Of a stretch of 53,520 nt of DNA, positions 29,925 through 53,520 are shown in pieces. The translations under genes and the position numbers were made by a program. The notes beneath the pieces were generated by a model. It was not told the origin of the DNA. It worked only from the letters and a program-made list of their open reading frames with translations, and ran no database searches. Positions within the stretch are counted from its first letter, which is position 1. Every line of letters begins with the position of its first letter. Source of the DNA: a virus; the IMG/VR virus record IMGVR_UViG_3300000116_000014, positions 12,959 through 66,478 of that record; one strand, written 5' to 3'.

Positions 29925-32900
29925 TTATTCTTTACCGAACGTATACTCATTTATTAAATACAAATGCTTCTTGGGTAAGACCACACCTTCAATCGCTGAC
30001 GCTTTCATGATGACCTTGGACTTCAGGCTGGCAAGAAGTGTCTTCGATGTGATCAACTCTGACTGAACGAGATACTTCATAGCTGGATCTTTAATATCAT
30101 TAATGCGCTCCATAATATAATTGTTCCACCTAGTCACAGCCGCCAATGCGTCCTGTACATCTGACTGATCTCCACCTGAAATTGCGGTATAAACATCACC
30201 AAGCACGTTTCGTCTGACCGCTTTCTGTTGTTCAGATTTATTCTTCCCAGCAAATGCCCGACTGTATGTAGAGCTTACGACTTCTGGAGTAAATCCTAGG
30301 GCTTGAATAACTATATCACTCGTGTCGAGTGAATCGATAACCTCCAAATCATTGCGTGTCTTGACACCATTCTTTGAGTAATCAACAGCTTTGTAAGCGT
30401 CCCGTACAACCTTGGGTAATGCAGACTTCAGATTATTAGTGGGGTTTCCTTCATACACATCCTGAGCAAAGTTGAAAGTAGATCCACCGATGCCACCGAA
30501 CACTGGGCCAGCCACTGATAATAAAAGTTCCTTGTAATATTCTTTGCCTGAAGACATCGGACGATCTGGCATCATGATTAACAGGTTCGTGTTCTGTCCT
30601 GTTCTTGATGCTATGTCTACGCCTAACGCATTACCGAGTCCTTTGCTGAGTAGAGCACTCATGAATTGCTGCTCATCATCATCGAACATGCCTCTAACAA
30701 GGTCGTCCAACCATTGAGTAAACTCAACTTCACTTGAGACAACCTCCTCTTCATCATCAGCAAATAAGTTGTACGCTACGCCGCCCATCCACACAGCTAC
30801 GGCTATTGGTAGTACACCTGTTGCCCCAGCTGCTAACATCTGGAATGTGACAAGACCGGCAAGGGCTTTCATTGCTTCTCTACGTTTCTCTGGAGACAAA
30901 GACTTGTCTCTACCTAAAGCCTCACGAGCGAGCTGAGAGTACATGTAGATAACGTGCTGACCATAGATTTTAAAGGTCGTCATCGACTTGATAATGTTGT
31001 TCTCTCGCATAGCCCTTGGACGGTTCTCAGATTCATACAAGAACTGAGTTTCTCCAATCAACTCACGCACCTCGTCATAAATCTTTAGCTCATTCTCGCT
31101 CATCTCTTCAGAGCTTTTGAACGTAGATCCTTTGAACAGCTCAGGGTGCTTGTCTTTGATCAGTCTGTATGTGGCTAATCCAGTGACCTCTCGGTTACTC
31201 ATCTCAGCCCCGTGGAACATATAAGCACCTGTGCGCATTAGCTTCTGCATTTTCGTGCCGAATACGCTAGGCGTTCTCTGATCAGAGTGAGCTTCTTCAG
31301 TGATCGAGCCAACTCGAGTGATGTCTATATCTCCTCGGTCTATTAACACCTTGATAAAGTTCTGCTCATCAGCTGTGACATTCTTATTGCCATCTCGCGC
31401 GAACGACTTGTACGCATCACGCAAAGACAACTCACTCTTGCCAAGATGCCAGTCAGTCATTGTCTTGAGGAACACTGCTGATGTTTTAGCTAGGCCATAC
31501 CGCGCACCGACAATCGGAATTGCTATCGTTGGAACCTGAGTCAAGTTGACAAACGCTGCGGCAGGAGACCAACCAAGGTAATGGAAGAAAGCCAACCGTC
31601 CTGCGTTCGATGCCCATGCTGCGCCTGTTGGATTCATAGTCAACTCGAATCTCTTCGTCATCTCAGCATGTGTTGCTGAAGCAATATCAGCATACTGTTG
31701 CGTAACTTGCGAAGCCTCACCCGTGGCAAACTTGCGATTCTCTAGACCGATGTCGTTCAATTCAGATTGGATTCGATCAGCATACTTAATCTTAGAGATC
31801 TGCTGTGCCGACTGAAGCATCATGTTCTGAACTGACCTTCTCATGTCAGATGACGCACCCTTGGTGCCAAGCCGCTGACGTCTACGCTGCATGATGGAGC
31901 TAGAAGGTAACGTGTTCAGCATCAAATTGTTTATATCAGTCTTGAGCTGTTCAGTTGATGCTCGGATAGACGATCTAGCATTTTCATCCATCATATCATC
32001 ACGAAGAACATCATCCCGATTCTCATCAAGCGCAGTAAATAGATTGTCTCTGAACGAGAAGAGGTCACCTGACTGAGCTGTCTTGCCCATGTCAGCCATG
32101 TACGTCATGCGTGCATTATCTTCACCCCACTTGGACTTGTGCCACTTCAACGCACGCTCAGCTTCTGTGCGGCTCTCGAACTGCTCTCGAACAAACTCCC
32201 TCTTGCCATTAATTTCTGCAAAAGCAATGACAACATGATTGCCAAATCTAGATAGAGGGAAGTATGGGCCGCGCTTAATTAACTCACCCATCCGATTCTT
32301 CAAAGCTTTCTTAGCCGACTCACGATGAACAGGGTTTTCAATCTGCCTATCAATACGAGCAAGTAACTCACTCTGCTCCATCTCATACTGCTCTCGTAAC
32401 ATAACTCGGGTGTCATCATAAACGAGCTTGGCATTAGCGGTGAGCTTGTTCCACTCCCTTCTCAATCGGGCATGCTCGGACTGCATAAAGGCTAAGCTTT
32501 CTTCTAAATTAGAAATGTTTGCCATGTCCACTTTAGTCTTCTTGGGTTTTGCCTTTAGCTTATCAAGCCTATTCTGGTCAAGACGAACAAACTCATGAAC
32601 TTTATTCGCCATTGATTCGTCAGGGTGTATGCCAGCAATCGTAGAATCACGCATGAGACTAGCCAAAGAGTTAGCTTCCTTGGTACTTAACTTGTCCCAA
32701 ATCTTCTCCTCTTTTTCAAACCCATGAAGCGCTCGTTCTTTATCAACTCTGAACTCACCTAGTAAATTGTTAATGGTCTTTAACGGGTTACCATCTTTCC
32801 AGTCAAACGCCGCCTTATAGGTGCGGAAGATCTGAGTATTAGTTAACCAATACTGGAGGAAGTTACGGTTCTTGTTCTGATTAATAACCTTAGAAGCCGA

Positions 32901-35900
32901 ATCAACTGTTGATTTACGGAAGTTCTCAGCTGCTAAGCCACCAAGAATCTTACCTACATTTTCTTCCGAGTCAGCAAATACCTCCATCTGCTTAGGAGCA
33001 TCGAGCTTGCTCACTTTGGAATAGAGAATCTGACCCGCAGTTTGTGGTGCTGTGTTTGCATTAGCATTGTCAGTGTAAACGTGGCGCTTGGCATCTAATA
33101 CTAAGTCTCTTAAATTACCATTCGATGCAATGTAATTGTTAGAGAACGTGCGCTTCATCCACATACGGATAGCGTCATACACACGAGTCATCAATGAACG
33201 AGACTCCAATCCTTCAGCCATCACTGCGATGATCTCCTCAGCTTCCTGCTCACGGCTAAGCTGACCTTCCCTATTCATAACTACTTCAGCCGCAGCAACC
33301 ACTTCAGGATCGCCATTCGCTTTCATGTCCTGCACTTCGTCTAGGATTGAGTTGAACTCATCTCCTAACATAGATTGAATGCCATAGTGGCCAACAACCT
33401 CATGACTAAAGACAGTACGCGCCTCTGACTTAGAGTGAATGTTGTCAGCAACGAGGTACGAAGTCATGCTGTTAGGAATGAATAGACCTCTTGCTGTTGG
33501 GTCGATGTCTGCGTTAAGCCCTGCGGTTGGAATATCAGAAACAGATTGAACCACTTCAACTGAGTGCCCAAGCTTACTCATGTTTGCTAATACAGAATTA
33601 CCTACCCACTTCTGAACATCTTTAACAGACTTACTTGAAAGACCTCTAGCCTTTTCACTGACTGACTGACGAGAGTAGACCACACCTCTGTCGTTGAGGT
33701 CAGTAGCTATTGCCTTAGCATGCGCTGTCTGCCAGACGTAGAAGAACGTTTCATTATTCCTGCTCTTAGGTGTAATGAAAGCACTTTCATTTCCCTTTTT
33801 GTCTAAGGGAAGTATCCTTCTTAGAGTGGCCTCAATAGACGCCTTATTAGCAGGAGTGGCTGTAAGGCTTAAATACTTTTTACCCTTGGCAGTCTCAGCT
33901 GTAATAGGATTAGCGCCATGCCGCTTCAGCTCTTCTATGTAGGTGTCACCAGCCTCTGGTTTAATAGCTGGCTTGACCTCAACTGAACCGAGGTCGCCTC
34001 CTCTGGCCTTAACTGCTTCTATTTGCTGTGGCGTCAACCCACCTGAACCATCACCTTCAAGGTCATAAACAGTTCCATCGTCATCCGCTACTCTGTTACC
34101 ATCTCCGTCTTTAGTCCCTTCCCACTCAAACGAATCAAAGATACTTGGCTCACCGCTCGAACTCAACAGTGTGTTAAGTTTGCGTTTAACCACTAATGAT
34201 TTGTGCTCATCACCTATGCCACCTTCCAGATTAACCACATGAACGACTGAAGCAGACTGGGTATTCTTTCTTGAGACTCGACCAATTAACTGAACCACTT
34301 TATCACCAGACCAGTTCTTGGTGACCATGATAAGTGAACGAGGAGTATCTCCTACAACGTCATCCAAGTTGATTCCAGTACCACCAGAAGCAGCAGTTAT
34401 TAAAGCAACGGGAGCCTTTCCTTCTTGGAATTCTGCTACGTTTTCTTTACGCTCATCTGTGGTGTCTCCCGTAAGCTCCGTATAGTTTATTCCCTCAGAA
34501 TCCAAGCGCTCTTTCATCAAGCCGATGAACCCCATAATTTTCTTATCATCTAAGCCTTTAATAGTTAAATCGTTACTGACAGTCTCCGCTGCTACAATAA
34601 CTTGTTTACCGTTAGCAAGATCTTCTTTAAGCTGTTCTACTGTTGCGTCTAGCTTGAGGTGCTCTTCCCACCTTACGAACTCATTGATCCTTTGGCCCTT
34701 CATCGTACTAGGATTGCCTTTAGCAGCCATCTCTGACGACCACCATCTATCCATCTCACTTTGCTCGATCCTTGATTCTTCTGTCATCTGAACATTAATG
34801 TCATTGGTTGTGCCAAAGAAAGGGTAGTACCGCTTGAGCATACGTCCTGACTTAATGACAAAATCTCTCATCTCAGCTACTTTTTCCAAAGCCCTCTTAG
34901 GAGAAACACCCTTCTTTAGCACCACCTCTTTTGGCCCTTCTATATATAGGCCAGATTTAGTCTTCACCTTCTTACCAGTGGCCAGCTTATGACCTAACCG
35001 ATCAAGCGCTTTCTCATATGTCTCACCTGTTATTTGCGCCCACATGTTAGCACCAGATGAAGCACGATCCATTGGTGTAGCTGTAACGTAAACTACTTTT
35101 TCTTTCCTTAGCCCACGACTTGCCTTAGCTTGAATGGTGTCGTAGTTCTTTAGGTTATGAGCCTCATCAAATAAAACCATACCCCAGTCTTGGTCGAACT
35201 CAGAATTTACTGCGTTCCCTTTCTTGCCGTCCTTAAAACTATTGTATGTTCCCGTCTTAAACTGGTTCATGTCGATGCCCATAATCGCAGCATCTTCAGC
35301 AAAGTTCTTTTTGAGAATCTCGGGCTTCTCAGAAATTATTAGAACCTTCTTACCTGTAGACTTTTTGTATTGATCAGCTATGGCTAGAATTTGTCGGGTC
35401 TTACCAAAGCCCGTACCATCCGCTAACAAGAACCCTTTGTAGTTTTTTTCCATCATAGATGACAACGCTAGATCAACACCCATACGTTGCCCTGCATCTA
35501 ACGAATCAGCATAGACAGATGAGTGATCATTTATAGTTGCACGATCTGGAATAATATCAGGTCTTACTTCGACAGCTGGCAGTCTACCCTTAGCAAGATT
35601 TGTCTCTGTTGCTATTCTTTGTGTAGGTATTCCTACCAAGGTTCTAGATGGATCTCCCAAGTTTCTAGATGGCTTGGACTCAGCTACGATGACCTTCCTT
35701 TGTTCATCTAATTGTTCTATTTGAACAGCTTCTATGGCCTCAGCTTGAGCAGCTTGAGCAGCTTCAGCAGCCACACGGATCTTAGTTTGAGCAGCTACGT
35801 TAGCCAGTAATGCTTCCATAGAAGCATCGAGGCCATCTTCTGATGCTGGCACATTGAACTTGATGTCATCAATCTTTCCATTTACTTGGAGAGAAGTTTC

Positions 35901-38900
35901 CACATCAGCCTCAGTAAACTGCTTACCGAAACTCTGCAACGTCCTGCGAACATCTGCCTTGGTGTAGTGCTCATAGAAGCCCACCTTACGGAGTGCCTTC
36001 ATGACGTATGAAACAATCGCATCCCAAGCTTTACCAAACTTAGATTGATCTGCCTCTTCAGCTACTCGTGCAAAAACTTCTTCAGCAATAGAAGACTCTA
36101 TGCTCTCGTCAGTAGCTCCCTGATTTTTCCAACCATCAATGTAAGGCTTATATCTGGTACGAACATTATCAAAAATGAGAGTCATTTCTTTGTTCTGACC
36201 TTCTGCCTTAGACACCCTGTTTAATATATCCATCTTCTCTTCAAGAGTAGTAAAGACAGACAAGCCATAGTGGGCAAGGATTTCGTGGCGCAGAACAGAC
36301 TCAAGTTCAGCCGTGTTATTAATTCCAGCAGCGTTTAGCGTCACTACTTTATTCTTTAGGCTACCGACAGCTGCACCGTCAGGCACAGGTGTGTTGATTA
36401 TGTTGTACTTAATATCAGGTATGCCGTTGTACTTAGCTTCAAAATTATTTATGACTGATTGCACAGACGCAACAGACATACCATTCGTATTTCTTAGCTG
36501 ACTTCTAGATACAAATTTCCGCCCAAGAATATCTGCGACATCAAATATGTCATCTATATCAGAATTAGTAATACCACTGGCGGGTTTAGATTTTTTGACT
36601 ACAACGCCTAATTCAACTAACGCCTTTTCTATCTTTGGGATAAGCGCCTTCGCGGCTTTGCGATCCGCAGCATTAAGCGTAGTATCTTTTGAATTAGACT
36701 TCGCATCTTTTAAACCTAATTGCAGCTGATCTATCTGATCTTGATCTGCGGTTGCGTCAGCAGGGTCTATCTCAATCTCTGGATCAGTGTTATCCGCATA
36801 GCCATTCAAGTCTCCCCAGTCTTGTTCATCATCAATCGTGAGATCTTCATCAGCAGTAAGGGTTGTTTCACCCAAAAATTCTTTAATAGGATCTGTGTTG
36901 CTAACAGTAAATGTTTCAGATTCAGCTTCAGCTTCAGCTTCAGTTTCATCGACTGTCTTTGCTTTTGTGGGTAGAGGCGGAAGGTCTGGGTCTGAGGCTA
37001 TGACCTCTAACTGCTGCATTATATCTTCAGTAGTTAGACCATCATCAGCCTTAGTCTTTTTACCCTGTCTTACAGGTGCTCTACCAGCTTCCTCAATGGC
37101 AGCGTCTTCCTCCTGTTCTTCTTGTATTGCAGCGTCACTTCTTAAATCGTTTTCACGTTCCAACTTAACCTTCGCCTGAAACAAAGCTTTGGTTGGATTA
37201 ATAACGTGGACAGCTCCATCAACCTCACCATCACGGAAGTAAAGAGCTTGGTTCTTAAGCTTCCCCCGTACTGATTGTGAGTTAGCCTTGGAAACTTTAA
37301 TACCAACAAGCAGCCCCGTATCTCCATCACTTAATACGTCTTCCTTTCCTTTTGCTTTCTTATGGCTACTTAAGAATTCATTGATAGCCGATGTGTCCCC
37401 CATCAAAGTCACAGACCCATCATCATTCTCTATCGAATCAAACTTGCTTACTGAATTGAACATGATGGATACTGCTTCAAGCCTATCCTTACCCTCTTCT
37501 AGCTCGAACTTACCTTTCTGTTCCCCACTTGCAAGCAATGCGTTAACAGTGTTGATGCGTAGGTTTGCAAATTCAGTTGCGGCTATTAAGGTGTCTGATT
37601 TTCCATCAGAATCAACATCAAGTAGTTCGCTTATGTTTTCCTCAGTGAGAGCCTCCATGCTATCCCCTTTGATGTAATCAAATAGGGGATCACTCTTGCG
37701 TGTAAGCATAAAGAGTTGGGGTTGGTTAGGGTATTTCTCGCTAGGAGTTTGGGCTAGGACGTAAGGTAATCCGCTATTCTCAATATTCTCTTGAAGGTTA
37801 TTTCTAGGCTCAGTAACAGCAACGTCTGTAGAAGCAGCTTCCTCGGACTTACCTACTGTGTCCATCCTGCTAACAGAAGTGACTACAAAGAAGTCATCAG
37901 ATACCTGTGATTTCTGAACGTCATAAGCACTGTTAGATCCGATTGTTTTTAATGCGTTCTCAGCAGACGTCTTATTGTCGTATGCCATCGGTTCATCTGT
38001 GCGCATTTTCTTTGAAGGGATCAAAGCGTCAAGAACAAATGACTTCTGCTCTCCAAACAAACCAAGGGTAGCTGTAGGACGATAGAGTCCCAATCCCTTT
38101 CGTTCAAGATCCTTAGCCTCTTCCACAGCCGCATCCTGCGTTGCAAAGACTTGAGCATAAACATCATCAGTGCCCTTCTCCCCCACATAAAGAGCAAGCT
38201 TTAAACCATCACCCCTTACTACAAACTGGAGAACCCTATCATCGTTAACTAGATCTGATGGATCATTGTTTGATGTTGATCCTACATCCTTTAAATCGAA
38301 CGCTACTTCCGCAGCTGCTTTAGCCACAACCTCAGTTGTATCTTGCACCGGATCATCCGGACTTGAATCAACAACTTCATTTGTACTAACTGGGTCTTCA
38401 ACTTCGTTAACATCTGTATTACCTTCAAATAAATCATTAGCTTGTGGGTTTTGTACTGGGTCTGCCTGAGTGGTTAAGCTTACGCCACCATCGAGGCTGA
38501 ACCCGTCAACCTCTCGGTCAACTTGGTCTTTAGTTTCACCTGCATCAAGGTCTCGATCTGCTTTGGTAGCAAGGTCTTCTTCGGTTTGAGTGGATAGTTC
38601 AAGGGCTGGCGCAGCTACTTCATCATCTGTAGTTTCTGCTACCACTGGCGCAGCTACTTCATCATCTGTAGTTTCTGCTACTACTGGTTCAGCTACTTCA
38701 TCATCTGTAGTTTCTGCTACTACTGGCGTAGCTACTTCATTACCTGTGAGTTCTGCAACGAGTGCAGGGTTGGTGTGCCAGTTTTGCCATTCGCGCTTCT
38801 GGTCTTTTAGTTCTTCAATCCTAGCTCTAACCGCTTCAGGATCTTTTACATTAACCCCTTCAGCCTTAGCTAACTCTGGATTATTTGATGCACCTGTAAC

Positions 38901-41900
38901 TGCTGTCAACGTGCGCTGTATTTCAGCTTGCTTCTGTACAGCTTTACGCGCTAAATTCTCAGCCTCTTTCATAGCTGAGTCATCAAACCCAAACAGATCC
39001 CCACTCTCTTGAGCAGTATCTCTGGTCATACTGTTGACTGCTTTTACAATATTGACAGACACAGTAATAGACTTGCCTTCTTGTAAGGCTTTGAGTCCAA
39101 CAGCTTGAAGTGTTTCGTTATTAGGTGCGGCTTGGGATACCTGAGTTGCAGCTATGTCACTGATTTGGTCGGCACGATGGGCGGCAACGAGCGCAGGGCT
39201 TCCTTCACTCGCAATCGTGTATGCTCTTCTCCCTGTTTGCCTTGCCAAAATTCCTTGACGGTCTGCTTCTTCTTCACTGATTTGGGTGCCTTGGATGAAC
39301 TCGACATAATCTTTTACCGTCCCTTGACCTTCTCTTATATTTAATAAAACATCCAGCATAGATGCTTGGTCTACCCCGAATCCTTCTGACTCTAGGTGAT
39401 ACTGTGCAGGTATGGTTGTTTCATTGCTTCGCTTGGCTAGGTCAAGACGATGCCTCCCACTGATAACTTCCTTGCGTCCATCTTCACGCAACCAGATCTG
39501 AATAGGTGCAACACCCACCCGATCAAACGTGCCACCAAGAGGGTCAACAACTCCTTCATTGTCTGCCCCATCTTTAAATTGAGGTACATCTTCACTTATA
39601 GTTATGTCAGATATTAGCACTTCAACTACTTGCTGTCCTCCAGCCTGAAACTCTTCCGTTGGCTCCTCAATAACAGCTTCATCAATCTCTTCTAGTACAG
39701 CTTTATTACCTTTGGTTTTCTTACCAGCAGCAGATTTCTTAGCACTCGCGTCAGTGGTTTTATCTGCCTTTGGTACTGTCTTCTTTGGTGGTGTTGGATC
39801 AGGGTCTGGCTCTGGCTCTGGCTCTGGTTGGGTAGCCTCAACTGGCTCTTCAACCGGTTGAGGACTAGGCTTTTTTGCCGTTAAGCTTGGAGCCTTTCCC
39901 TTTTGATAGATTGTTTCTTCCCATACCTCGTAGACTAAAGGCACTACGTTATCGTTAAGTCCTTCAACGTACTCATCGTACATCGCTAACTTAGTAGGCG
40001 TTGGACTTGAAAACAAACCCATAGCTCGTCCTAACGACTGGATATAATAGTCAGCTGAAGCCTTACCTAACTCCGCATTTATCTTTCTGTATTGTCTTCT
40101 GACAGTATTATTAATGGCAGAGGTCTTGGTTAAGGTCTCAATGTATTCAGTATCTTTAGTAAGGATCTTATTGACAGCTTTACGATTTAACTTCTTATCA
40201 TCAGGCGTACCATTAGCACGCAAACTATTCATGTTGTCGCGTACAACACCCTGAAGATCAACCGCAATACCATCCTCTTCTATAGGCTGTAACCTACCGA
40301 ACAAGTCTGTAGATGCAAAAGGATTAGTCTCTTGATTGGCAAATACATCGTATAGGTTGTCACCAGTGGCTTCATCCTGTACATCCACACTTGAATCTGG
40401 ATCTACAGACCCAGCCTCCATCTCCCCATACTCTTCTAACTGAGCTTCAGTCACAGCGTCTTCTGCTTCTAACGCTTGCTGCCATCGAGGCACTTCATTT
40501 AATGGGGTAGGTGCTAGAGCATCGAATTTCTCTTCCATCATCCTGATGCTTTCTTCTTTACGGAAAGCTTGATCAGACCCTACTTCCATTTTCATTAAAG
40601 ACTTTAGCTCACGAATGATTGCGTCTTTGTATACGCGCTGCTCATCAAATCTGTCACTGTCTTTATCTGGCTGGACTTTAGACCACTCAAGTATCCGCTT
40701 TGTTATAGCTGGGTTTGATGCAGGAGCTGTGGGTGCAGAAGTCTCTATCCCAAGATCAACCGGTGTTGATGGTAGTATCTCGTCTAAGTTATTTATCTCA
40801 TCTTGAATACTAGCGATACGATCAGTAGCAGCCTTACGCGCTTCAGGGGCAAGCTTACGATTCTTTGACTGAGCTAATGCTATATCTAAAGCTATCTGCA
40901 AATCAGCTCTGTAGTTAGCCTTTTCAGTAGACTCTTCAACAGGACTTAAAGCACGCGCATTCGCAGCGGCTGCTTGAGGACTAGAACCTACTTGTTCTTC
41001 AACCCTAGCCTTTACAGCTTCGTCACTAGCATCCTCTGGCATTGGCGCTGTAGAAGAATCTTCTAAACGGTCTGGTGCTTTTGGATCTACAGCCTCAGTA
41101 TCTCCTACTAAATCCAGTCCTTCTTCTGCTACTGACTCAGTTGGCCCATCTTTTAATGCCTGAAGAGTTTCATCCAACTCTGATTGTTCTTTTGCTGCCC
41201 GTCTTTCCTGTTGGAATAGATACTCTTGCTGGTCTCCATATCCGGGCATGTCTTTTTCTTTAGTGATGCCAGTCATTTTAGACCCAATGCCACCAACAGC
41301 AGACATCGATCCACCAGAACTAGCACCAAACAAAGTACCAGTTAAGGCTTCATTGGCCACGTTATCCATGGGCTGAACTGACCTATCAGCATTTTTATTC
41401 ACAGCTTGGTTAGTTAGATAAGCTTGACCACCTGATTCAACAAGCTCCTGAGTACCCTCAATGGCTGCACCCTTTAAGGCTCTCTTGGTAATTCCACCGC
41501 TTACCCTACCTAAGACGTTGTTCAAGAACATTGGGCCAAGAATACCCATACTCACTGCACCTAGGCTGAATCCATCAGCAAAGCCATCGTCACTAGCTGC
41601 TTCAGCAACAAAAACTCGAGCTTGTTCTGCTATCTCTTCATGAGTAGCCTCAGTCCCCTCAGCTTTGTATGTATCAGCAATCTTCCAGTAAGCGGCCTGA
41701 TAAGCTGGGTGTTTGTTTAGCTCCTCTGTTGAAGCATTATAAGCCTTATTGTAAGCCTCTTGCTTTGAACCACCACCAATACCTATTCCACCCATACCAG
41801 CCATAGCAGCAGCTTGCGGTACCTTCCCAGCAGGAAGATTCAATGCAGCTTTTCTCGCCACACTAGGCATGACTAGACCACCTGCTGCTCGACCAGCTTT

Positions 41901-42458
41901 GCTAATTCCCTTCGCAACCAAACCACCCCCAAGCATATAGGGTACGGACGATGCGACTCCTGCAACTGTGTTTAACAATCCACCAACAAGTGTTGAACCC
42001 TCAGTAAATTTAGGCATGCCATCAGGCCCAAGTTCAACCCCTGTGTTCTGCATCTGAGTTCTATTTGACTCAGACATTTGAGAATACTGTTCGTCAGCTT
42101 GTTCTTTCAGATAGTTAGCAATGGTTCCTGCTGTTTCTGATTCTTCTCCAGTAGCCCACTTGGTTAAACCACTGATTCCTTCAGCCATGCTAGAGCCAAC
42201 ATTGAGCAAACTAGCTTGTGATACGTCAACCGCATCCAGCCCAAATTGCCCCCAGTCAGTACCATTATCTTCCTGCTGTGGCTGTGCCTGCTGAGCTTGA
42301 ACTGGTTCGCCAGTGTCATTAAAAATAGGCATGAACTGGTCAAATGATATTTGCTGTAGTTCTTTATCTTGGTCGTAAACCATCCGACCTAGATCCATGG
42401 CAGAAACATTCTGATACTGAGGGTTCTGACGCATCTGTGATAAATACAATGAAGACAT
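29925..42458 (-). CDS. Giant multidomain virion (polyvalent, PLxRFG-type) protein, 4,177 aa
   Basis: Numbered from ATG 42458 (preferred to TTG 42470). The order of modules is: glycine-rich hydrophobic stretch (about 160-200); proline/glutamate-rich linker (about 870-895); ParB/Srx-like domain with GRHRLD near 1001; HEILAHYG near 2058; SF2 helicase with Walker A GTGFGKT (2348), DEAH (2431) and motif VI QLIGRVSR (2723); a second HEVVGHYG near 3019; PLSRFG near 3401; hydrophobic segment near 3865-3895; then a long helical end. This layout matches phage polyvalent proteins thought to be ejected with the DNA. It follows four internal-virion-type genes, the place T7 gp16 occupies. Actual activities untested. 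Confidence 0.85.
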   Translation of the reverse strand: MSSLYLSQMRQNPQYQNVSAMDLGRMVYDQDKELQQISFDQFMPIFNDTGEPVQAQQAQPQQEDNGTDWGQFGLDAVDVSQASLLNVGSSMAEGISGLTKWATGEESETAGTIANYLKEQADEQYSQMSESNRTQMQNTGVELGPDGMPKFTEGSTLVGGLLNTVAGVASSVPYMLGGGLVAKGISKAGRAAGGLVMPSVARKAALNLPAGKVPQAAAMAGMGGIGIGGGSKQEAYNKAYNASTEELNKHPAYQAAYWKIADTYKAEGTEATHEEIAEQARVFVAEAASDDGFADGFSLGAVSMGILGPMFLNNVLGRVSGGITKRALKGAAIEGTQELVESGGQAYLTNQAVNKNADRSVQPMDNVANEALTGTLFGASSGGSMSAVGGIGSKMTGITKEKDMPGYGDQQEYLFQQERRAAKEQSELDETLQALKDGPTESVAEEGLDLVGDTEAVDPKAPDRLEDSSTAPMPEDASDEAVKARVEEQVGSSPQAAAANARALSPVEESTEKANYRADLQIALDIALAQSKNRKLAPEARKAATDRIASIQDEINNLDEILPSTPVDLGIETSAPTAPASNPAITKRILEWSKVQPDKDSDRFDEQRVYKDAIIRELKSLMKMEVGSDQAFRKEESIRMMEEKFDALAPTPLNEVPRWQQALEAEDAVTEAQLEEYGEMEAGSVDPDSSVDVQDEATGDNLYDVFANQETNPFASTDLFGRLQPIEEDGIAVDLQGVVRDNMNSLRANGTPDDKKLNRKAVNKILTKDTEYIETLTKTSAINNTVRRQYRKINAELGKASADYYIQSLGRAMGLFSSPTPTKLAMYDEYVEGLNDNVVPLVYEVWEETIYQKGKAPSLTAKKPSPQPVEEPVEATQPEPEPEPDPDPTPPKKTVPKADKTTDASAKKSAAGKKTKGNKAVLEEIDEAVIEEPTEEFQAGGQQVVEVLISDITISEDVPQFKDGADNEGVVDPLGGTFDRVGVAPIQIWLREDGRKEVISGRHRLDLAKRSNETTIPAQYHLESEGFGVDQASMLDVLLNIREGQGTVKDYVEFIQGTQISEEEADRQGILARQTGRRAYTIASEGSPALVAAHRADQISDIAATQVSQAAPNNETLQAVGLKALQEGKSITVSVNIVKAVNSMTRDTAQESGDLFGFDDSAMKEAENLARKAVQKQAEIQRTLTAVTGASNNPELAKAEGVNVKDPEAVRARIEELKDQKREWQNWHTNPALVAELTGNEVATPVVAETTDDEVAEPVVAETTDDEVAAPVVAETTDDEVAAPALELSTQTEEDLATKADRDLDAGETKDQVDREVDGFSLDGGVSLTTQADPVQNPQANDLFEGNTDVNEVEDPVSTNEVVDSSPDDPVQDTTEVVAKAAAEVAFDLKDVGSTSNNDPSDLVNDDRVLQFVVRGDGLKLALYVGEKGTDDVYAQVFATQDAAVEEAKDLERKGLGLYRPTATLGLFGEQKSFVLDALIPSKKMRTDEPMAYDNKTSAENALKTIGSNSAYDVQKSQVSDDFFVVTSVSRMDTVGKSEEAASTDVAVTEPRNNLQENIENSGLPYVLAQTPSEKYPNQPQLFMLTRKSDPLFDYIKGDSMEALTEENISELLDVDSDGKSDTLIAATEFANLRINTVNALLASGEQKGKFELEEGKDRLEAVSIMFNSVSKFDSIENDDGSVTLMGDTSAINEFLSSHKKAKGKEDVLSDGDTGLLVGIKVSKANSQSVRGKLKNQALYFRDGEVDGAVHVINPTKALFQAKVKLERENDLRSDAAIQEEQEEDAAIEEAGRAPVRQGKKTKADDGLTTEDIMQQLEVIASDPDLPPLPTKAKTVDETEAEAEAESETFTVSNTDPIKEFLGETTLTADEDLTIDDEQDWGDLNGYADNTDPEIEIDPADATADQDQIDQLQLGLKDAKSNSKDTTLNAADRKAAKALIPKIEKALVELGVVVKKSKPASGITNSDIDDIFDVADILGRKFVSRSQLRNTNGMSVASVQSVINNFEAKYNGIPDIKYNIINTPVPDGAAVGSLKNKVVTLNAAGINNTAELESVLRHEILAHYGLSVFTTLEEKMDILNRVSKAEGQNKEMTLIFDNVRTRYKPYIDGWKNQGATDESIESSIAEEVFARVAEEADQSKFGKAWDAIVSYVMKALRKVGFYEHYTKADVRRTLQSFGKQFTEADVETSLQVNGKIDDIKFNVPASEDGLDASMEALLANVAAQTKIRVAAEAAQAAQAEAIEAVQIEQLDEQRKVIVAESKPSRNLGDPSRTLVGIPTQRIATETNLAKGRLPAVEVRPDIIPDRATINDHSSVYADSLDAGQRMGVDLALSSMMEKNYKGFLLADGTGFGKTRQILAIADQYKKSTGKKVLIISEKPEILKKNFAEDAAIMGIDMNQFKTGTYNSFKDGKKGNAVNSEFDQDWGMVLFDEAHNLKNYDTIQAKASRGLRKEKVVYVTATPMDRASSGANMWAQITGETYEKALDRLGHKLATGKKVKTKSGLYIEGPKEVVLKKGVSPKRALEKVAEMRDFVIKSGRMLKRYYPFFGTTNDINVQMTEESRIEQSEMDRWWSSEMAAKGNPSTMKGQRINEFVRWEEHLKLDATVEQLKEDLANGKQVIVAAETVSNDLTIKGLDDKKIMGFIGLMKERLDSEGINYTELTGDTTDERKENVAEFQEGKAPVALITAASGGTGINLDDVVGDTPRSLIMVTKNWSGDKVVQLIGRVSRKNTQSASVVHVVNLEGGIGDEHKSLVVKRKLNTLLSSSGEPSIFDSFEWEGTKDGDGNRVADDDGTVYDLEGDGSGGLTPQQIEAVKARGGDLGSVEVKPAIKPEAGDTYIEELKRHGANPITAETAKGKKYLSLTATPANKASIEATLRRILPLDKKGNESAFITPKSRNNETFFYVWQTAHAKAIATDLNDRGVVYSRQSVSEKARGLSSKSVKDVQKWVGNSVLANMSKLGHSVEVVQSVSDIPTAGLNADIDPTARGLFIPNSMTSYLVADNIHSKSEARTVFSHEVVGHYGIQSMLGDEFNSILDEVQDMKANGDPEVVAAAEVVMNREGQLSREQEAEEIIAVMAEGLESRSLMTRVYDAIRMWMKRTFSNNYIASNGNLRDLVLDAKRHVYTDNANANTAPQTAGQILYSKVSKLDAPKQMEVFADSEENVGKILGGLAAENFRKSTVDSASKVINQNKNRNFLQYWLTNTQIFRTYKAAFDWKDGNPLKTINNLLGEFRVDKERALHGFEKEEKIWDKLSTKEANSLASLMRDSTIAGIHPDESMANKVHEFVRLDQNRLDKLKAKPKKTKVDMANISNLEESLAFMQSEHARLRREWNKLTANAKLVYDDTRVMLREQYEMEQSELLARIDRQIENPVHRESAKKALKNRMGELIKRGPYFPLSRFGNHVVIAFAEINGKREFVREQFESRTEAERALKWHKSKWGEDNARMTYMADMGKTAQSGDLFSFRDNLFTALDENRDDVLRDDMMDENARSSIRASTEQLKTDINNLMLNTLPSSSIMQRRRQRLGTKGASSDMRRSVQNMMLQSAQQISKIKYADRIQSELNDIGLENRKFATGEASQVTQQYADIASATHAEMTKRFELTMNPTGAAWASNAGRLAFFHYLGWSPAAAFVNLTQVPTIAIPIVGARYGLAKTSAVFLKTMTDWHLGKSELSLRDAYKSFARDGNKNVTADEQNFIKVLIDRGDIDITRVGSITEEAHSDQRTPSVFGTKMQKLMRTGAYMFHGAEMSNREVTGLATYRLIKDKHPELFKGSTFKSSEEMSENELKIYDEVRELIGETQFLYESENRPRAMRENNIIKSMTTFKIYGQHVIYMYSQLAREALGRDKSLSPEKRREAMKALAGLVTFQMLAAGATGVLPIAVAVWMGGVAYNLFADDEEEVVSSEVEFTQWLDDLVRGMFDDDEQQFMSALLSKGLGNALGVDIASRTGQNTNLLIMMPDRPMSSGKEYYKELLLSVAGPVFGGIGGSTFNFAQDVYEGNPTNNLKSALPKVVRDAYKAVDYSKNGVKTRNDLEVIDSLDTSDIVIQALGFTPEVVSSTYSRAFAGKNKSEQQKAVRRNVLGDVYTAISGGDQSDVQDALAAVTRWNNYIMERINDIKDPAMKYLVQSELITSKTLLASLKSKVIMKASAIEGVVLPKKHLYLINEYTFGKE
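38347..38361. repeat. Dispersed palindrome, copy 7 (inside giant gene)
   Basis: ACCGGATCATCCGGA matches the 15-bp palindrome at 14 positions. Read as SSPDDPVQ in the giant protein, in a disordered acidic region. G-centred in the coding sense. Confidence 0.8.
38611..38766 (-). repeat. 39-bp tandem repeat in giant gene
   Basis: Three nearly identical 39-bp units start at 38611, 38650 and 38689, with a fourth diverged unit at 38728. They encode VAETTDDEVA(A/E)PV (13 residues), an acidic flexible linker. Length variation by slippage is expected here. Confidence 0.85.
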
Positions 42459-42472
42459 AATTTGTTCCAACC

Positions 42473-44827
42473 TTAGTTAAGGAATTTGTTGACTGAAGCC
42501 TCAAATCTTTTGATCACAGCAGCAGGGGCTTTTCTGGTATTTAGTGATTTATAAATGTCACGAATGACTGACATCCTTAGAGATGGCATGTCATCAACAA
42601 ACTCCTTTAATGTTCCTTGATCTGCATAAGCATTTATCTGTTCAGATAATCCTATGACTGCGGTCTGATCTAATTGATCAAACATGCTGGGGCCAAAACC
42701 CCAAGCCATTTTCCATCTATCTAAGATGTTAGGCTTCTGGGATGGCGTCATATTCTGTGGGCCATTGACTTCCATCCAATACTCAAAGACATCTTCCCAC
42801 TGCTTAGCCGTCTTTTGATTTCTTGGTAATGACTGTATTCGCGTTAGCATCTGCTCAACGCTGTTGATATGATTAGGGTCACGGGCCGCTTCCCTCCTGA
42901 CCAAAGCCATCATGTCAGGGTCACTTATGGCTGCTCTCATATCAGTAATCTCAGCTTCAATCGCACCAGCTCTGTTGTAATCAATTTCATCATTAGTAGA
43001 TGCTTGATTATCAGCAGCTGTGCTAGCCTGATTATTGGCTTGCCACTCTTCATACTTGTAATGTCTAGGGTCATCTATAGCTAAGCCATTGTTAGAGATT
43101 AAAGTTTTTAATCGATCTCCTGCACCCTGTTCATAAGCACCTGTTTGTTCTCGTGTCATGTCTAGATGTAGGGCCGTGTTGTCAGCAATACGCTGGTTTT
43201 CTGGATCAGAAGAAAGCCACTCTTTTAAGGTTCCGTTCTTAGCCATAGTGACAATAGCGTTCGCATTTTCAGTAACCATATCTATTGCGTCCATGTTTGA
43301 TGGGCGTTGGGTAGGTAAGATCTGAAGACCGTTTGGAGAGGCGTTAACCACAGCTGCGTTAGAGTTAGTAGGGAAAGCTTCAAACATTCTGAATTGATCT
43401 GGATTAACTTTAGGTGGTGGAGTAATCTCTTCATTAGTAAGTCCAAGACCTCTCATTTCGGGACTAGAAGATGACTGTCCTTGGTATCCTGATGCCTGCT
43501 CTCGAGCTGATTGTGCTTGTTGAGCAACTACCGCATTTAAATCAGGAGCTGCTTCTGGACGCACAGGACTATCTGTATTTGTAGTTACATTTTGATTTGT
43601 AGTTACATTTTGATTTGTAGTTACAGTTTCAGTTGCAGTGTCGGCGCTATTAGAATCAGTCTGATTAGCTACTAGACTATTGACCGCATCATTAACGGAG
43701 CCACCTGTAGCCTGTGCCTGCATACCTTCAATGCCAGAGAGTGACTGGTAATCCTCACCGTTATACTTAATGTAAATATTATCTATTGCACTGAAGTATT
43801 TCTGGGCTTTAGCCATGTTAGCTTGGTAAGCATTAAATGCCTGTATATTGACCGGTTGTGAAACACCACCTGATATGACAGTCTTAGGCGCGTCTTTTTC
43901 TTTAAACAGCCCCTCGATTATGGCCGCTTCACTAGATGAAGACTTGGGGTAGAATTGTGAAATAGCGCTCTGAGCCATAGTCATGTGCTTAGTGCCTAAG
44001 CTCGTATAGGTAGAAATCATGTTCGTATCAACAGAACTCATAGGGGTTTCCACACCTTGAGTCTTCATCAGTTGCCTGATGTTTTTCATTAACGGTTCCA
44101 TCCCGTCAGTGAGCATCATCGTACCCTTAAGATTTGACAATAACCCATCAACATTTTGACCTACGACATTGTCTCCATCACCAGCAGTTCCGGCTCCCTG
44201 TGTCATCGCTGCAAGGTATGTCTTTACGTTTCCTTCAGCGTCCTCATACATAACTTCAAGATCACCGCCAACAACTCCGCCTCCCATAGCGTAAGCCCCG
44301 CCGATTAACTTCTTGTTGAGAATCTTGTTTCCTTTAATCTTCTCTGGTGTATTGGTATAAACTCCTTCGATTCCCTTTCTCTTATCAGGTACTCTTCCCA
44401 TTGTTTCAAACGGGACTTCGCTGTTGTTCTTATTTAGCCTGCCTCCCCATACAAGGTTTACAGCGTTGGTGAACTCAGGGGATTGAAGGTTGTACTTCTG
44501 GTTTAAAATGTCTTGTTGAGCTTCTTTAACTTTAGGATCTAAGTGATGGTATAGGTCATAATTCAAATCAGTTTGCAGAACATCCAAGAAGTCTTGCGAA
44601 GGAAGTTGTCCAGCATCGATTTGCCCCGCAATACCTTTTATCGCTTCTTCAACTCTTCTCTTCTTTTGATCCTGCTCAAAAACAGTTTGTTGATTATCAA
44701 ATGTCTTTTGTGCATTGTCGGCAGTCTGTTGATTAAGCTTTTGTGTCTTTTGACGATTGTAATAATCGTCCATCATCTTGAAGCCGCCTGTAAAACCGCT
44801 AGCCAAACCTTGTCCAGTTAAACTCAT
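42473..44827 (-). CDS. Internal virion protein (T7 gp15-like position), 784 aa
   Basis: Mostly helical, Q/N/S-rich, with a basic coiled N-terminus (DDYYNRQKTQKLNQQTADNAQ) and a TTNQNV repeat region near residue 400. Near residue 440 is GYQGQSSSSP, also present in the 189-aa protein at 45216. It precedes the giant protein gene, as internal core protein gp15 precedes gp16 in T7-like phages. GAGGAAG precedes ATG. Probably part of the ejected core; no enzyme motif. Confidence 0.7.
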   Translation of the reverse strand: MSLTGQGLASGFTGGFKMMDDYYNRQKTQKLNQQTADNAQKTFDNQQTVFEQDQKKRRVEEAIKGIAGQIDAGQLPSQDFLDVLQTDLNYDLYHHLDPKVKEAQQDILNQKYNLQSPEFTNAVNLVWGGRLNKNNSEVPFETMGRVPDKRKGIEGVYTNTPEKIKGNKILNKKLIGGAYAMGGGVVGGDLEVMYEDAEGNVKTYLAAMTQGAGTAGDGDNVVGQNVDGLLSNLKGTMMLTDGMEPLMKNIRQLMKTQGVETPMSSVDTNMISTYTSLGTKHMTMAQSAISQFYPKSSSSEAAIIEGLFKEKDAPKTVISGGVSQPVNIQAFNAYQANMAKAQKYFSAIDNIYIKYNGEDYQSLSGIEGMQAQATGGSVNDAVNSLVANQTDSNSADTATETVTTNQNVTTNQNVTTNTDSPVRPEAAPDLNAVVAQQAQSAREQASGYQGQSSSSPEMRGLGLTNEEITPPPKVNPDQFRMFEAFPTNSNAAVVNASPNGLQILPTQRPSNMDAIDMVTENANAIVTMAKNGTLKEWLSSDPENQRIADNTALHLDMTREQTGAYEQGAGDRLKTLISNNGLAIDDPRHYKYEEWQANNQASTAADNQASTNDEIDYNRAGAIEAEITDMRAAISDPDMMALVRREAARDPNHINSVEQMLTRIQSLPRNQKTAKQWEDVFEYWMEVNGPQNMTPSQKPNILDRWKMAWGFGPSMFDQLDQTAVIGLSEQINAYADQGTLKEFVDDMPSLRMSVIRDIYKSLNTRKAPAAVIKRFEASVNKFLN

Positions 44828-44839
44828 GGGTACTTCCTC

Positions 44840-45211
44840 TTAAAACATTTCGCCAATTAACAAACCAATACCAGCACCAATCAATGCTCCCCATGGGCCT
44901 GCTGCTGCGCCTGCTGTAGCTAGGGTTGAACCAGTTGCGGCTGCGCCAGCACCTGCAAGTCCAGTTGCACCAGCCATAGTGCCTCCAGTTCCAAGCGCAC
45001 CAGCTATCGCCTGACCTCCCATTTGTGACATGCCATACTGCGCACCTAAACCAGCAGTCGTTCCTATCATTGACTTCTTCTGAGCTGACGCGGCCTGTTC
45101 TAGTTGTGTTTGCATCATTTCTCTTGACTGCTCTAGCCCAGCAGCCTTAGAGAAACCAGCCTTTGCACTACTAGCCATTCCTCGTCCTGTACCAATCAAT
45201 CCATAAGCCAT
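44840..45211 (-). CDS. Glycine-zipper membrane-active virion protein (123 aa)
   Basis: The C-terminal half is A/G/T-rich with glycine-zipper spacing (GGQAIAGALGTGGTMAGATG, then GPWGALIGAGIGLLIGEMF), compatible with membrane insertion. The N-terminus has a charged helix. In T7-like phages a gp14-type protein with similar properties makes the first channel for DNA entry. Assignment by position and composition. Confidence 0.65.
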   Translation of the reverse strand: MAYGLIGTGRGMASSAKAGFSKAAGLEQSREMMQTQLEQAASAQKKSMIGTTAGLGAQYGMSQMGGQAIAGALGTGGTMAGATGLAGAGAAATGSTLATAGAAAGPWGALIGAGIGLLIGEMF

Positions 45212-45215
45212 AGTC

Positions 45216-45785
45216 TTAACCTTTTTGACGCATCGTATTGATGCCGCCAGTCATAATTTTGTCTTGTCGCTCATCGGCTGTAGCGTACAAGTTGTTCTTC
45301 GCATCCACTGATGCAATCGCTTGATCTAAACTGGCCATCCGATTTCGGCTGGCTGCCTGATCTTCGTTAGGAGATATTCCATAACGAGAGAGTTGACGAT
45401 CAGCGATTCCGCGCATGGTGGTAAATGATTGATTCACCGCTTCTGGAATTCTTTCTGCTTCGCCTTCCATCATTCCACCATTTTTGTAGATAGCAGCAAG
45501 ACGATCCTCATAGGGCTGGAAACGCTTCTTGTAGTCTTCCCATTGCTCTCGAGTAATCGCGGCATTGATTGCAGAAGCTCCACCTTTGCTACTAGCATCT
45601 ATTGAATTAGGGTCTGATGTGTTGCTTGATAATCCACCAGTGTTATAAGAACGTCCCTGACCAGCACCATTACCGTCATAAGCGATTGTGTTACTTACAC
45701 CGCCAGTCCCATAATTCCCTAAGTCGGGACTAGATGATGACTGCCCTTGGTATCCCGATGTATATGCGTCCTCGTATGTTTTCAT
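45216..45785 (-). CDS. Internal virion-type protein with GYQGQSSSSP motif (189 aa)
   Basis: The N-terminus SGYQGQSSSSPDL is shared with the 784-aa protein. Residues 15-75 are disordered and rich in G, N, S and D, and a helical C-terminal half follows (REQWEDYKKRFQPYEDRLAAIY). AAGGAG is 9 bases before ATG, which overlaps the upstream stop. Neighbours suggest a structural role. Confidence 0.65.
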   Translation of the reverse strand: MKTYEDAYTSGYQGQSSSSPDLGNYGTGGVSNTIAYDGNGAGQGRSYNTGGLSSNTSDPNSIDASSKGGASAINAAITREQWEDYKKRFQPYEDRLAAIYKNGGMMEGEAERIPEAVNQSFTTMRGIADRQLSRYGISPNEDQAASRNRMASLDQAIASVDAKNNLYATADERQDKIMTGGINTMRQKG

Positions 45786-46447: not shown

Positions 46448-46868
46448 GGGGTATCTCCTTAGTGAGAACGACATACTGTTGTTTAAAATTAGCCTCCCTA
46501 CCTAACAATCTACCCCATCCTTTTCGTCCGTAAACCTCTAGGTGAGAACAGTTTTGCAGTTTGGCTAACCGGTATAATGATTTCTCCATTAGCCGTCCCC
46601 ATTTGTGGAATTTTGAACCTCCAATGGAATGGACTAATAGTATTTTTCGCTGTGGGTAATTTCTAAATTGCGTGGTGTAGGCTGCAATGATTTCGTTGCC
46701 GTCACCTACACACCAGAGTTGCATCTGGTCATTCATGATTAGCTCTAATATATCTGTCGAGAGATATTCACCAATAGAGTATTCAAGGGCTGAGTCTATG
46801 TAGCCCTGTACTTTAGGCCAGATGTCTTCAACCATTTCTTTTGGTGTGTATAGTATTTCGTAATCCAC
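46431..46868 (-). CDS. GNAT-like virion protein (T7 gp13-like), GTG start
   Basis: GTG 46868 overlaps the phoH stop (TAGTG), with GAGGG 7 bases upstream. LWCVGDGNEIIAAYTTQF, then LLVHSIGGSKFHKW and CSHLEVYGRKGWGRLLG, follow the strand order of GNAT acetyltransferases. Similar proteins encode the scaffold-like gp13 internal virion proteins of T7-like phages. Acetyl-CoA binding residues are not convincing, so enzyme activity is doubtful. Confidence 0.65.
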   Translation of the reverse strand: MDYEILYTPKEMVEDIWPKVQGYIDSALEYSIGEYLSTDILELIMNDQMQLWCVGDGNEIIAAYTTQFRNYPQRKILLVHSIGGSKFHKWGRLMEKSLYRLAKLQNCSHLEVYGRKGWGRLLGREANFKQQYVVLTKEIPREDPH

Positions 46869-47593
46869 TAAAGACCCTCTTTATAGAACGTCTCCACAAA
46901 CATGCGACAAACACTACTTCGCTGAATGTCATCTAACTCAAAGTCCACAATGGTCACAGGTAACATGTATTTTTTGGCTAAATGGATTAACTTACCTAAG
47001 CCTGAAGTCTCTTTAATATCTGATTGGGCAAGGTCACCCATCAATATAAGCTTGCAGTTCTCTCCGACTCGAGTACATACCGCCTTGATTTCCTCAACGG
47101 TCATCTGCTGAGCTTCATCTATTAGAAAGAAAGCCCCTTCATCTTCACCACCAAAACTTCTGCCTCGGATAGTTTCAAGAGGTTGCAACTCGATGAGTCC
47201 GTTGTTAAGGCTAGTCTCAAACCTTCCTGCCCCCATACGTTGCTTGAGAACATCGATCATCGGCATAAGCCAGTTCAACATCTTGTCATCCTTATCACCC
47301 TTGAAGAAGCCCAGAGAGCGCCCTGTAGGTATGTTGGCCCTGCATAGAATGATCTTGTGGATTCGAGATTGCATGAACATATCTGCGGCATAGGAGCAAG
47401 CAAGATAAGTCTTACCCGATCCTGCTGCGCCACTTGCAATGATGACAGGAAGGTCGGGGTTCTTTAGCGCTTTAATGTAGGTATCTTGATTGGGTGTCTT
47501 AGCAATAATCGGTGGTTTGTGACGTTCATCACTCCATTTAATGGCTGCTAATTCTCTTGCTTCCTTAACATTCTTGGTTCGCTTAGATGACAT
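46868..47593 (-). CDS. phoH: PhoH-family ATPase
   Basis: ATG 47593 has AAGGAG 5 bases upstream. The 241-residue protein has Walker A GAAGSGKT (55-62), Walker B FLIDEAQQM (about 156-164) and the PhoH signature segments RANIPTGRSLGFFKGDKDDKM and LMGDLAQSDI. PhoH proteins are P-loop helicase-like ATPases frequent in marine phages; their exact role in infection is unsettled. Its place inside the virion operon is common in such phages. Confidence 0.9.
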   Translation of the reverse strand: MSSKRTKNVKEARELAAIKWSDERHKPPIIAKTPNQDTYIKALKNPDLPVIIASGAAGSGKTYLACSYAADMFMQSRIHKIILCRANIPTGRSLGFFKGDKDDKMLNWLMPMIDVLKQRMGAGRFETSLNNGLIELQPLETIRGRSFGGEDEGAFFLIDEAQQMTVEEIKAVCTRVGENCKLILMGDLAQSDIKETSGLGKLIHLAKKYMLPVTIVDFELDDIQRSSVCRMFVETFYKEGL

Positions 47594-47665
47594 TTGACTC
47601 CTTGATAAGCCAGTTGTGGTCAACCTTAAACGTATCGAAGTGTTACAAATATATCAGTGTTATTT

Positions 47666-53267: not shown

Positions 53268-53495
53268 TCATAAGTGACCCTGTTTGATATAAATCGCAAC
53301 CCCGAACAACGCGCCCATGATTACTATCATTATTAGTCCCACAGTAATTCCGACTGTGAGATTATCTTGAAGTCTTTTAGCTTTTAGTGCTTTCTGTTTG
53401 GCGGCTGCTTGTTCGGCTTCTTTTAAATCTCTTGTGTACTGGGCTTTGAATGCCAAAAAGTCCACCCAACCATGCAGCCTCTGTTTATTAAGCAT
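53268..53495 (-). CDS. Coiled-coil protein with C-terminal TM, possibly truncated by window edge
   Basis: Acidic/basic helix (TRDLKEAEQAAAKQKALKAKR) and one membrane segment (TVGITVGLIMIVIMGALFGV) before a short basic end. The frame stays open from ATG 53495 to the window edge, so the true start may lie outside. It overlaps the next gene by ATGA and is part of the lysis cassette. Precise role unknown. Confidence 0.6.
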   Translation of the reverse strand: MLNKQRLHGWVDFLAFKAQYTRDLKEAEQAAAKQKALKAKRLQDNLTVGITVGLIMIVIMGALFGVAIYIKQGHL

Positions 53496-53520
53496 AAATT
53501 TAAGTTCTTCTTCTTGCCTA

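Follow-up and report, generated by a model that had tools for sequence, protein, structure and literature searches.

A giant cysteine-free phage protein with a predicted SWI2/SNF2-type ATPase, a ParB/Noc-like module and no detected DarB-type methyltransferase

What could a phage gain from a single chain of 4,177 residues that joins a ParB-like module, an SF2 ATPase, two zincin-like domains and a PLxRFG domain, and where would such a protein act? We addressed this question for a gene found in a stretch of 53,520 nucleotides (hereafter the window, that is the whole DNA analysed), which belongs to a 66,478-bp IMG/VR virus record.

The reading frame and its modules

The frame lies on the minus strand and runs from an ATG at 42458 to a stop at 29925 without any internal stop, the plus strand of 29925-42458 containing many stops. 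A first-pass annotation, made from the sequence alone, had described one intact frame with a series of motifs; all of them were found, and the strand was the only element that it had omitted. The features of the gene are as follows.

29925..42458, minus strand: gene of the giant polyvalent protein (4,177 aa, about 458 kDa, 0 cysteines)
41286..42080, minus strand: residues 127-391, N4 virion-RNA-polymerase-like ejection/membrane domain (profile against the solved N4 vRNAP)
38319..40838, minus strand: residues ~541-1380, recently recombined tract of ~840 residues (divergence from the sister at 4-fold sites)
38709..39668, minus strand: residues 931-1250, ParB/Noc-like module, predicted NTP-binding N-domain followed by a helix-turn-helix (AlphaFold and Foldseek)
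38606..38756, minus strand: 39-bp tandem repeat in 3.9 copies, encoding the acidic linker that ends the ParB module
36489..38318, minus strand: residues 1381-1990, fast-evolving middle region (46% identity to the sister)
35910..36440, minus strand: residues 2007-2183, zincin-like domain 1, HEILAH at residue 2058 (24-row alignment)
34059..35588, minus strand: residues 2291-2800, SF2 ATPase, probably of SWI2/SNF2 type, with GTGFGKT (residue 2348), DEAH (residue 2431), TATP and QLIGRVSR (residue 2723) (Pfam, PHROG, SsoRad54)
33579..34058, minus strand: residues 2801-2960, small domain after the ATPase, present only in the window giant and its sister among the surveyed proteins
33072..33575, minus strand: residues 2962-3129, zincin-like domain 2, HEVVGH at residue 3019 (24-row alignment)
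32289..32702, minus strand: residues 3253-3390, LPD39 (Pfam PF18858, 39.8 bits against a cut-off of 27)
30114..32270, minus strand: residues 3397-4115, PLxRFG ('tail-700') C-terminal domain, PLSRFG at residue 3401 (NF032893)

A sister phage, represented by a 73,555-bp contig (G001, locus L010), carries an orthologue of 4,641 aa with the same motifs. The two proteins are under purifying selection, with a pN/pS of 0.35 overall and 0.18 in the PLxRFG region, and in-frame TGY codons are absent from the window gene (0, against 86 and 249 in the two other frames of the same DNA). Altogether, these data indicate that the frame is not due to chance.

The N-terminal domain matches the N4 virion RNA polymerase (vRNAP), both by profile (chains 9pnr/11gp/11go, residues 226-445, E 5e-14) and through PHROG 2206, virion RNA polymerase (E 1.5e-7). 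In N4 vRNAP this domain has been described as likely membrane-spanning (PMC12633501). It is common to 48 of the 94 giants surveyed below. No single-subunit RNA polymerase domain was detected in the window giant with Pfam or PHROGs.

Searches with one or two sequences of the ParB region returned nothing useful from Pfam, PHROGs or the PDB, and a larger alignment was needed. Relatives numbered 26 in IMG/VR, and the 19-member alignment that was built displays an invariant GRHR motif; its profile has Noc as best match (E 0.015). The AlphaFold model (pLDDT 74) resembles Noc 7nfu in Foldseek (E 8e-5, probability 1.00), and Noc, ParB and KorB are all retrieved at probability 1.00, with modest TM-scores (0.38/0.51). 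The model thus predicts an NTP-binding domain followed by a DNA-binding helix-turn-helix, which bears out and refines the ParB-like domain noticed at first. While the predicted fold is that of the Noc/ParB/KorB CTPase family, the module differs from it in several respects: it sits inside a giant phage protein, GRHR replaces GERR, Leu occupies the Glu position of the ENxxR-like motif in both window and sister, and no ParB dimerisation domain was identified. The ParB of P1 DdrB was considered as its nearest relative and rejected, the similarity being weak and non-significant.

The SF2 domain exceeds the cut-offs of Pfam Helicase_C, SNF2-rel_dom and ResIII and matches PHROG 62 (DNA helicase, E 1.5e-28) and SsoRad54 (1z63, E 5e-7). 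The SF2 assignment of the first-pass annotation holds; from the latter match, we consider that what it called a helicase is probably rather a double-stranded DNA translocase of SWI2/SNF2 type. Its motifs are intact in the window giant, in the sister and also in relatives; the catalytic decay in relatives that the first-pass annotation had named as evidence against its own reading was thus looked for and not found. A tblastn search of phage records with the ATPase gave no match, and none was obtained in a scan of bacterial genomes.

The two HExxxH motifs are the sites of paralogous zincins. Both domains belong to one HMM family, present in about 74 of the 94 surveyed proteins, and H52, E53 and H57 are invariant in the 24 rows; such an HExxxH variant has been described for polyvalent proteins (PMC5512222). 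The PLxRFG domain is assigned by NCBIfam NF032893 (E 3e-107, 359.7 bits against a cut-off of 100) and by PHROG 10089, DarB-like (E 2e-61). Its predicted model has no solved relative in the PDB and resembles other viral polyvalent proteins as well as the 'internal virion protein D' of Roseobacter phages. Kinship with the C-terminus of N4 vRNAP was rejected in the absence of sequence support and of a PDB fold match. Finally, residues 1381-1990 matched nothing in Pfam, PHROGs or phages.

A late operon with cysteine-free products

The late operon comprises, in order, terminase, portal and major head protein (L002) and, over the record ends, the internal virion protein, the tail fibre and the giant as last gene. 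A 499-aa Ala/Ser-rich reading frame crosses the record ends (L002:1-1247 joined to window 53268-53520), an indication that the genome is complete and circularly permuted. The phage also encodes an integrase, an Erf annealing protein and a RecE-like exonuclease, which indicate a temperate phage, and relatives of its portal include Vibrio, Roseobacter and Pelagibacter phages, from which the host is likely a marine proteobacterium. A PhoH-like ATPase gene (window 46868-47623) also belongs to the late operon, where it separates the tail fibre region from the ejection genes. When the late region was compared with phage records by Megablast, no match was returned.

Three genes upstream of the giant (window 42473-45785) form a candidate ejectosome operon.

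42473..44827, minus strand: 784-aa cysteine-free protein directly upstream of the giant, candidate ejection-channel partner (position of T7 gp15 and N4 gp51)
44840..45211, minus strand: 123-aa protein from the same operon, likewise without cysteine
45216..45785, minus strand: 189-aa protein without cysteine, resembling PHROG 21132 'DNA ejection'

Their order resembles T7 gp14-15-16 and N4 gp52-51-50, and cysteine-free upstream genes precede the giants in seven phages, namely that of the window, the sister and five named phages. The lack of cysteine in the window giant itself is shared by 61 of the 94 surveyed giants, which altogether contain 59 cysteines in 305,764 residues. Within the same phage, the sampled late genes reach a cysteine content of 0.70% and the sampled early ones 1.31%. 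Among the controls, cysteine is absent from N4 vRNAP, gp51 and gp52 and from T7 gp15 and gp16, and T7 gp14 contains a single one, whereas most other N4 and T7 proteins contain 0.3-2.7%, N4 gp56 and gp57 (0) being exceptions. In P1 DarB, whose phage has a contractile tail, 9 of 2,255 residues are cysteines. It has been proposed that N4-like vRNAPs must be devoid of cysteine to cross the tail and the oxidising periplasm (PMC3715699; PMC3915230). It should be stressed that this property supports passage through oxidising surroundings and not any particular function, since some capsid proteins such as N4 gp56 also lack cysteine.

In the same class, the giant JC1 gp69 (4,515 aa) has been identified by 51 unique peptides in virions purified on CsCl (PMC9144972). 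Together with the absence of cysteine, the cysteine-free upstream operon and the vRNAP-like N-terminus, this provides good, though indirect, support for the giant being delivered with the genome. The first-pass annotation had placed the gene where T7-like phages encode ejection proteins, and these data agree with it, as does the likeness of the C-terminal model to an internal virion protein. As far as our tools show, it is new that a cysteine-free operon generally marks these giants: within the part of the literature covered, we found no paper reporting cysteine depletion in DarB-like giants. The near-absence of cysteine over thousands of residues and in adjacent genes offers a cheap marker for podophage proteins ejected across the periplasm.

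A known class of giants and the missing methyltransferase

The protein is very large, combines disparate domains and lies near phage virion genes, like the polyvalent proteins of Iyer et al. (2017); delivery with the DNA at infection, another mark of that group, has indirect support here. The class of polyvalent/DarB-like giants is already known (PMC5512222), and this is where the initial interpretation, correct in its domain calls, fell short, as it recognised neither the class nor the missing methyltransferase. DarB-like/PLxRFG giants of podophages include Bcep22/JC1 gp69 (by published description for JC1 gp69), PBC5, POI1126, PEp14, Parlo and Lastavirus. They share the late-operon position and the C-terminal PLxRFG domain (25-28% identity for the named ones aligned), near-zero cysteine, one or more zincins in most of them, often the N-terminal domain and, in some, the SF2 ATPase. 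The window giant is distinguished from them by its ParB/Noc module combined with two HExxxH zincins.

Another difference concerns methylation. We surveyed 94 proteins: the window giant, its sister, those of 12 named phages and 80 IMG/VR loci found via the PLxRFG module. F116 entered the survey by its longest ORF, a methyltransferase protein, its PLxRFG-type module being a separate gene. An HMM seeded with P1 DarB detects the methyltransferase in 41 of these proteins (42 with P1 DarB itself), a DarB-type ATPase HMM matches 21 (22 with P1 DarB) and a window-type ATPase HMM matches 11, including the window giant, the sister and the truncated L059; these counts hinge on the thresholds chosen, and many loci reach no further than 10 kb upstream. 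The methyltransferase accompanies all 21 DarB-type ATPases and, apart from window and sister, all eight untruncated window-type ATPases. In contrast, neither the window giant nor its sister has an NPP[YF] motif or a match to the methyltransferase HMM. A search for N6_Mtase in both phage records found none, in conditions where 14 of 14 control genomes were positive. On these grounds a hidden methyltransferase was rejected, although residues 1381-1990 could harbour a very divergent enzyme. Judging from the sequences, the window giant and its sister thus appear to be the only surveyed giants with an untruncated ATPase that lack a DarB-type methyltransferase, within a survey that covers a fraction of at least 574 relatives and a sister record that may be incomplete. 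A methyltransferase-free ATPase giant appears to be new as far as search tools show.

DarB proper displays an LPD36-methyltransferase-SNF2 arrangement, whereas the SWI2/SNF2-type ATPase of the window giant has no adjacent adenine methyltransferase NPP[YF] motif. The two ATPases are distantly related (window residues 2675-2760 against DarB 1465-1545, 33% identity, E 4e-4); no relation was detected outside this domain, and no PLxRFG module was found in DarB, which likewise belongs to the class of injected proteins. N4 vRNAP (gp50) has in common with the window giant a homologous N-terminus, zero cysteines, a zincin domain and the last position in the ejection operon. However, its cargo is an RNA polymerase where the window giant carries an ATPase and a ParB module, and the C-termini have no detectable relation.

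Differences between the window giant and its sister concern whole modules: the latter has about 144 extra residues ahead of the ParB module and a 290-residue insert, placed after the positions equivalent to window residues 877 and 2984, respectively. The 290-residue insert is an additional HExxH zincin that resembles part of N4 vRNAP (PHROG 2206, E 2e-11), and the 144-aa insert is a module without assignment. At 4-fold-degenerate sites, 0.17 of positions differ between the two phages inside residues ~541-1380 against 0.55 outside (Fisher p 2e-33, merely indicative as the limits were picked after viewing the profile). This low divergence reveals a recent recombination tract, within which the ParB module lies. 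Giant ORFs of other phages also carry the module, at 31-72% identity, and the three examined all have an LPD38 end; no structural genes common to these phages and the window were detected in the stretches compared. The LPD38 giants (L104-L128) share the ParB module, at up to about 70% identity, but are otherwise unrelated by BLAST, except for a zincin in one, and their C-terminal module is different. In L107 and the related L104-L113, which are giants of another phage lineage, the ParB module is about 70% identical to that of the window; L107 also carries, downstream, a methyltransferase-like domain (PF05175), and its C-terminus is LPD38. Another ParB-carrying giant (L120:2160-12323) contains a GHKL ATPase domain of the HSP90/gyrase-B type (PF13589, E 5e-7). 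As far as our tools show, the Noc/ParB-type module with its predicted helix-turn-helix and its exchange between lineages are new.

Possible functions of the giant

The suggestion of the first-pass annotation that an ATPase delivered with the genome aids entry or counters host defence is plausible. We propose, with somewhat better than an even chance in our judgement, that the giant is packaged in the virion and ejected, and that its SNF2-type ATPase and ParB/Noc module protect the entering DNA in cis without methylation. It would be the counterpart of T7 gp16 or N4 vRNAP in the cysteine-free ejection operon of a temperate podophage. The protein would travel unfolded through the tail and then the periplasm, its vRNAP-like N-terminal domain would settle at the inner membrane and the string of catalytic modules would face the cytoplasm; in phage DEV, gp71 has been placed as a gp16 equivalent spanning the inner membrane (PMC10925440). 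The ATPase could then move along the incoming double-stranded DNA of the phage and, helped by the DNA-binding ParB/Noc-like module, fend off defence complexes that sit on DNA, such as type I-like restriction, while the zincins would probably cleave the chain into separate units after delivery. Such a protein would represent a methylation-independent version of the DarB strategy, which is reasonable as P1 Dar acts in cis and perhaps shields the entering DNA physically (PMC12707154). On the other hand, the ATPase is only distantly related to that of DarB (best domain iE 7e-5 with --max), which counts against this proposal. Protection by P1 also depends on several co-packaged Dar proteins, and this counts against it as well.

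The main rival explanation, which we regard as rather unlikely and for which we know of no precedent, is that the giant, lodged in the membrane, draws in the 66-kb genome by translocating on double-stranded DNA at the expense of ATP once the ejection channel has formed, thereby replacing the role of transcription in N4 and T7. An operon position and an N-terminal domain like those of vRNAP, itself a proposed pulling motor (PMC10925440), are in line with this idea, SNF2-type ATPases track on double-stranded DNA (PMC5512222) and, the methyltransferase being absent, modification cannot be the purpose. Nevertheless, the ATPase exists in a minority of the giants of the same family and is thus not generally required for entry. 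It is also unlikely that the target is the host or a rival element and not the phage genome, with the ParB-type module as an NTPase, nuclease or repressor and the zincins as effector proteases. Such roles of ParB and peptidase domains have been proposed by Iyer et al. (PMC5512222) and module swapping between unrelated phages would fit an arms race, yet a ParB module with a ParB-type DNA-binding helix-turn-helix beside a DNA translocase points to DNA.

One could also assume that the giant has a purely structural or ejection role, and that its enzymatic domains are relics or cargo that can be dispensed with. The N- and C-terminal domains are indeed widely shared and the middle variable, but the motifs are intact under purifying selection in both phages and present in relatives, which makes this quite improbable. 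Least credible of all, to our mind, is a non-virion protein acting late in the producing cell, in assembly, packaging or lysis: its gene does belong to the late operon, but the zero cysteines, the vRNAP-like N-terminus and the homologue found in virions argue in the other direction.

Returning to delivery with the genome, there is a small chance that the giant, once ejected, is an ATP-driven DNA translocase anchored in the membrane and that, together with its Noc/ParB-type clamp, it imports the entering genome or shields it, without DNA modification. If this were true, podophages would have a further source of energy for genome entry besides transcription and head pressure. More generally, these giants swap whole modules between unrelated phages, and that of the window separates the methyltransferase from the DNA translocase, which are coupled in the other surveyed giants. 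It therefore offers a natural opportunity to learn whether translocation by itself is enough to protect or import phage DNA.
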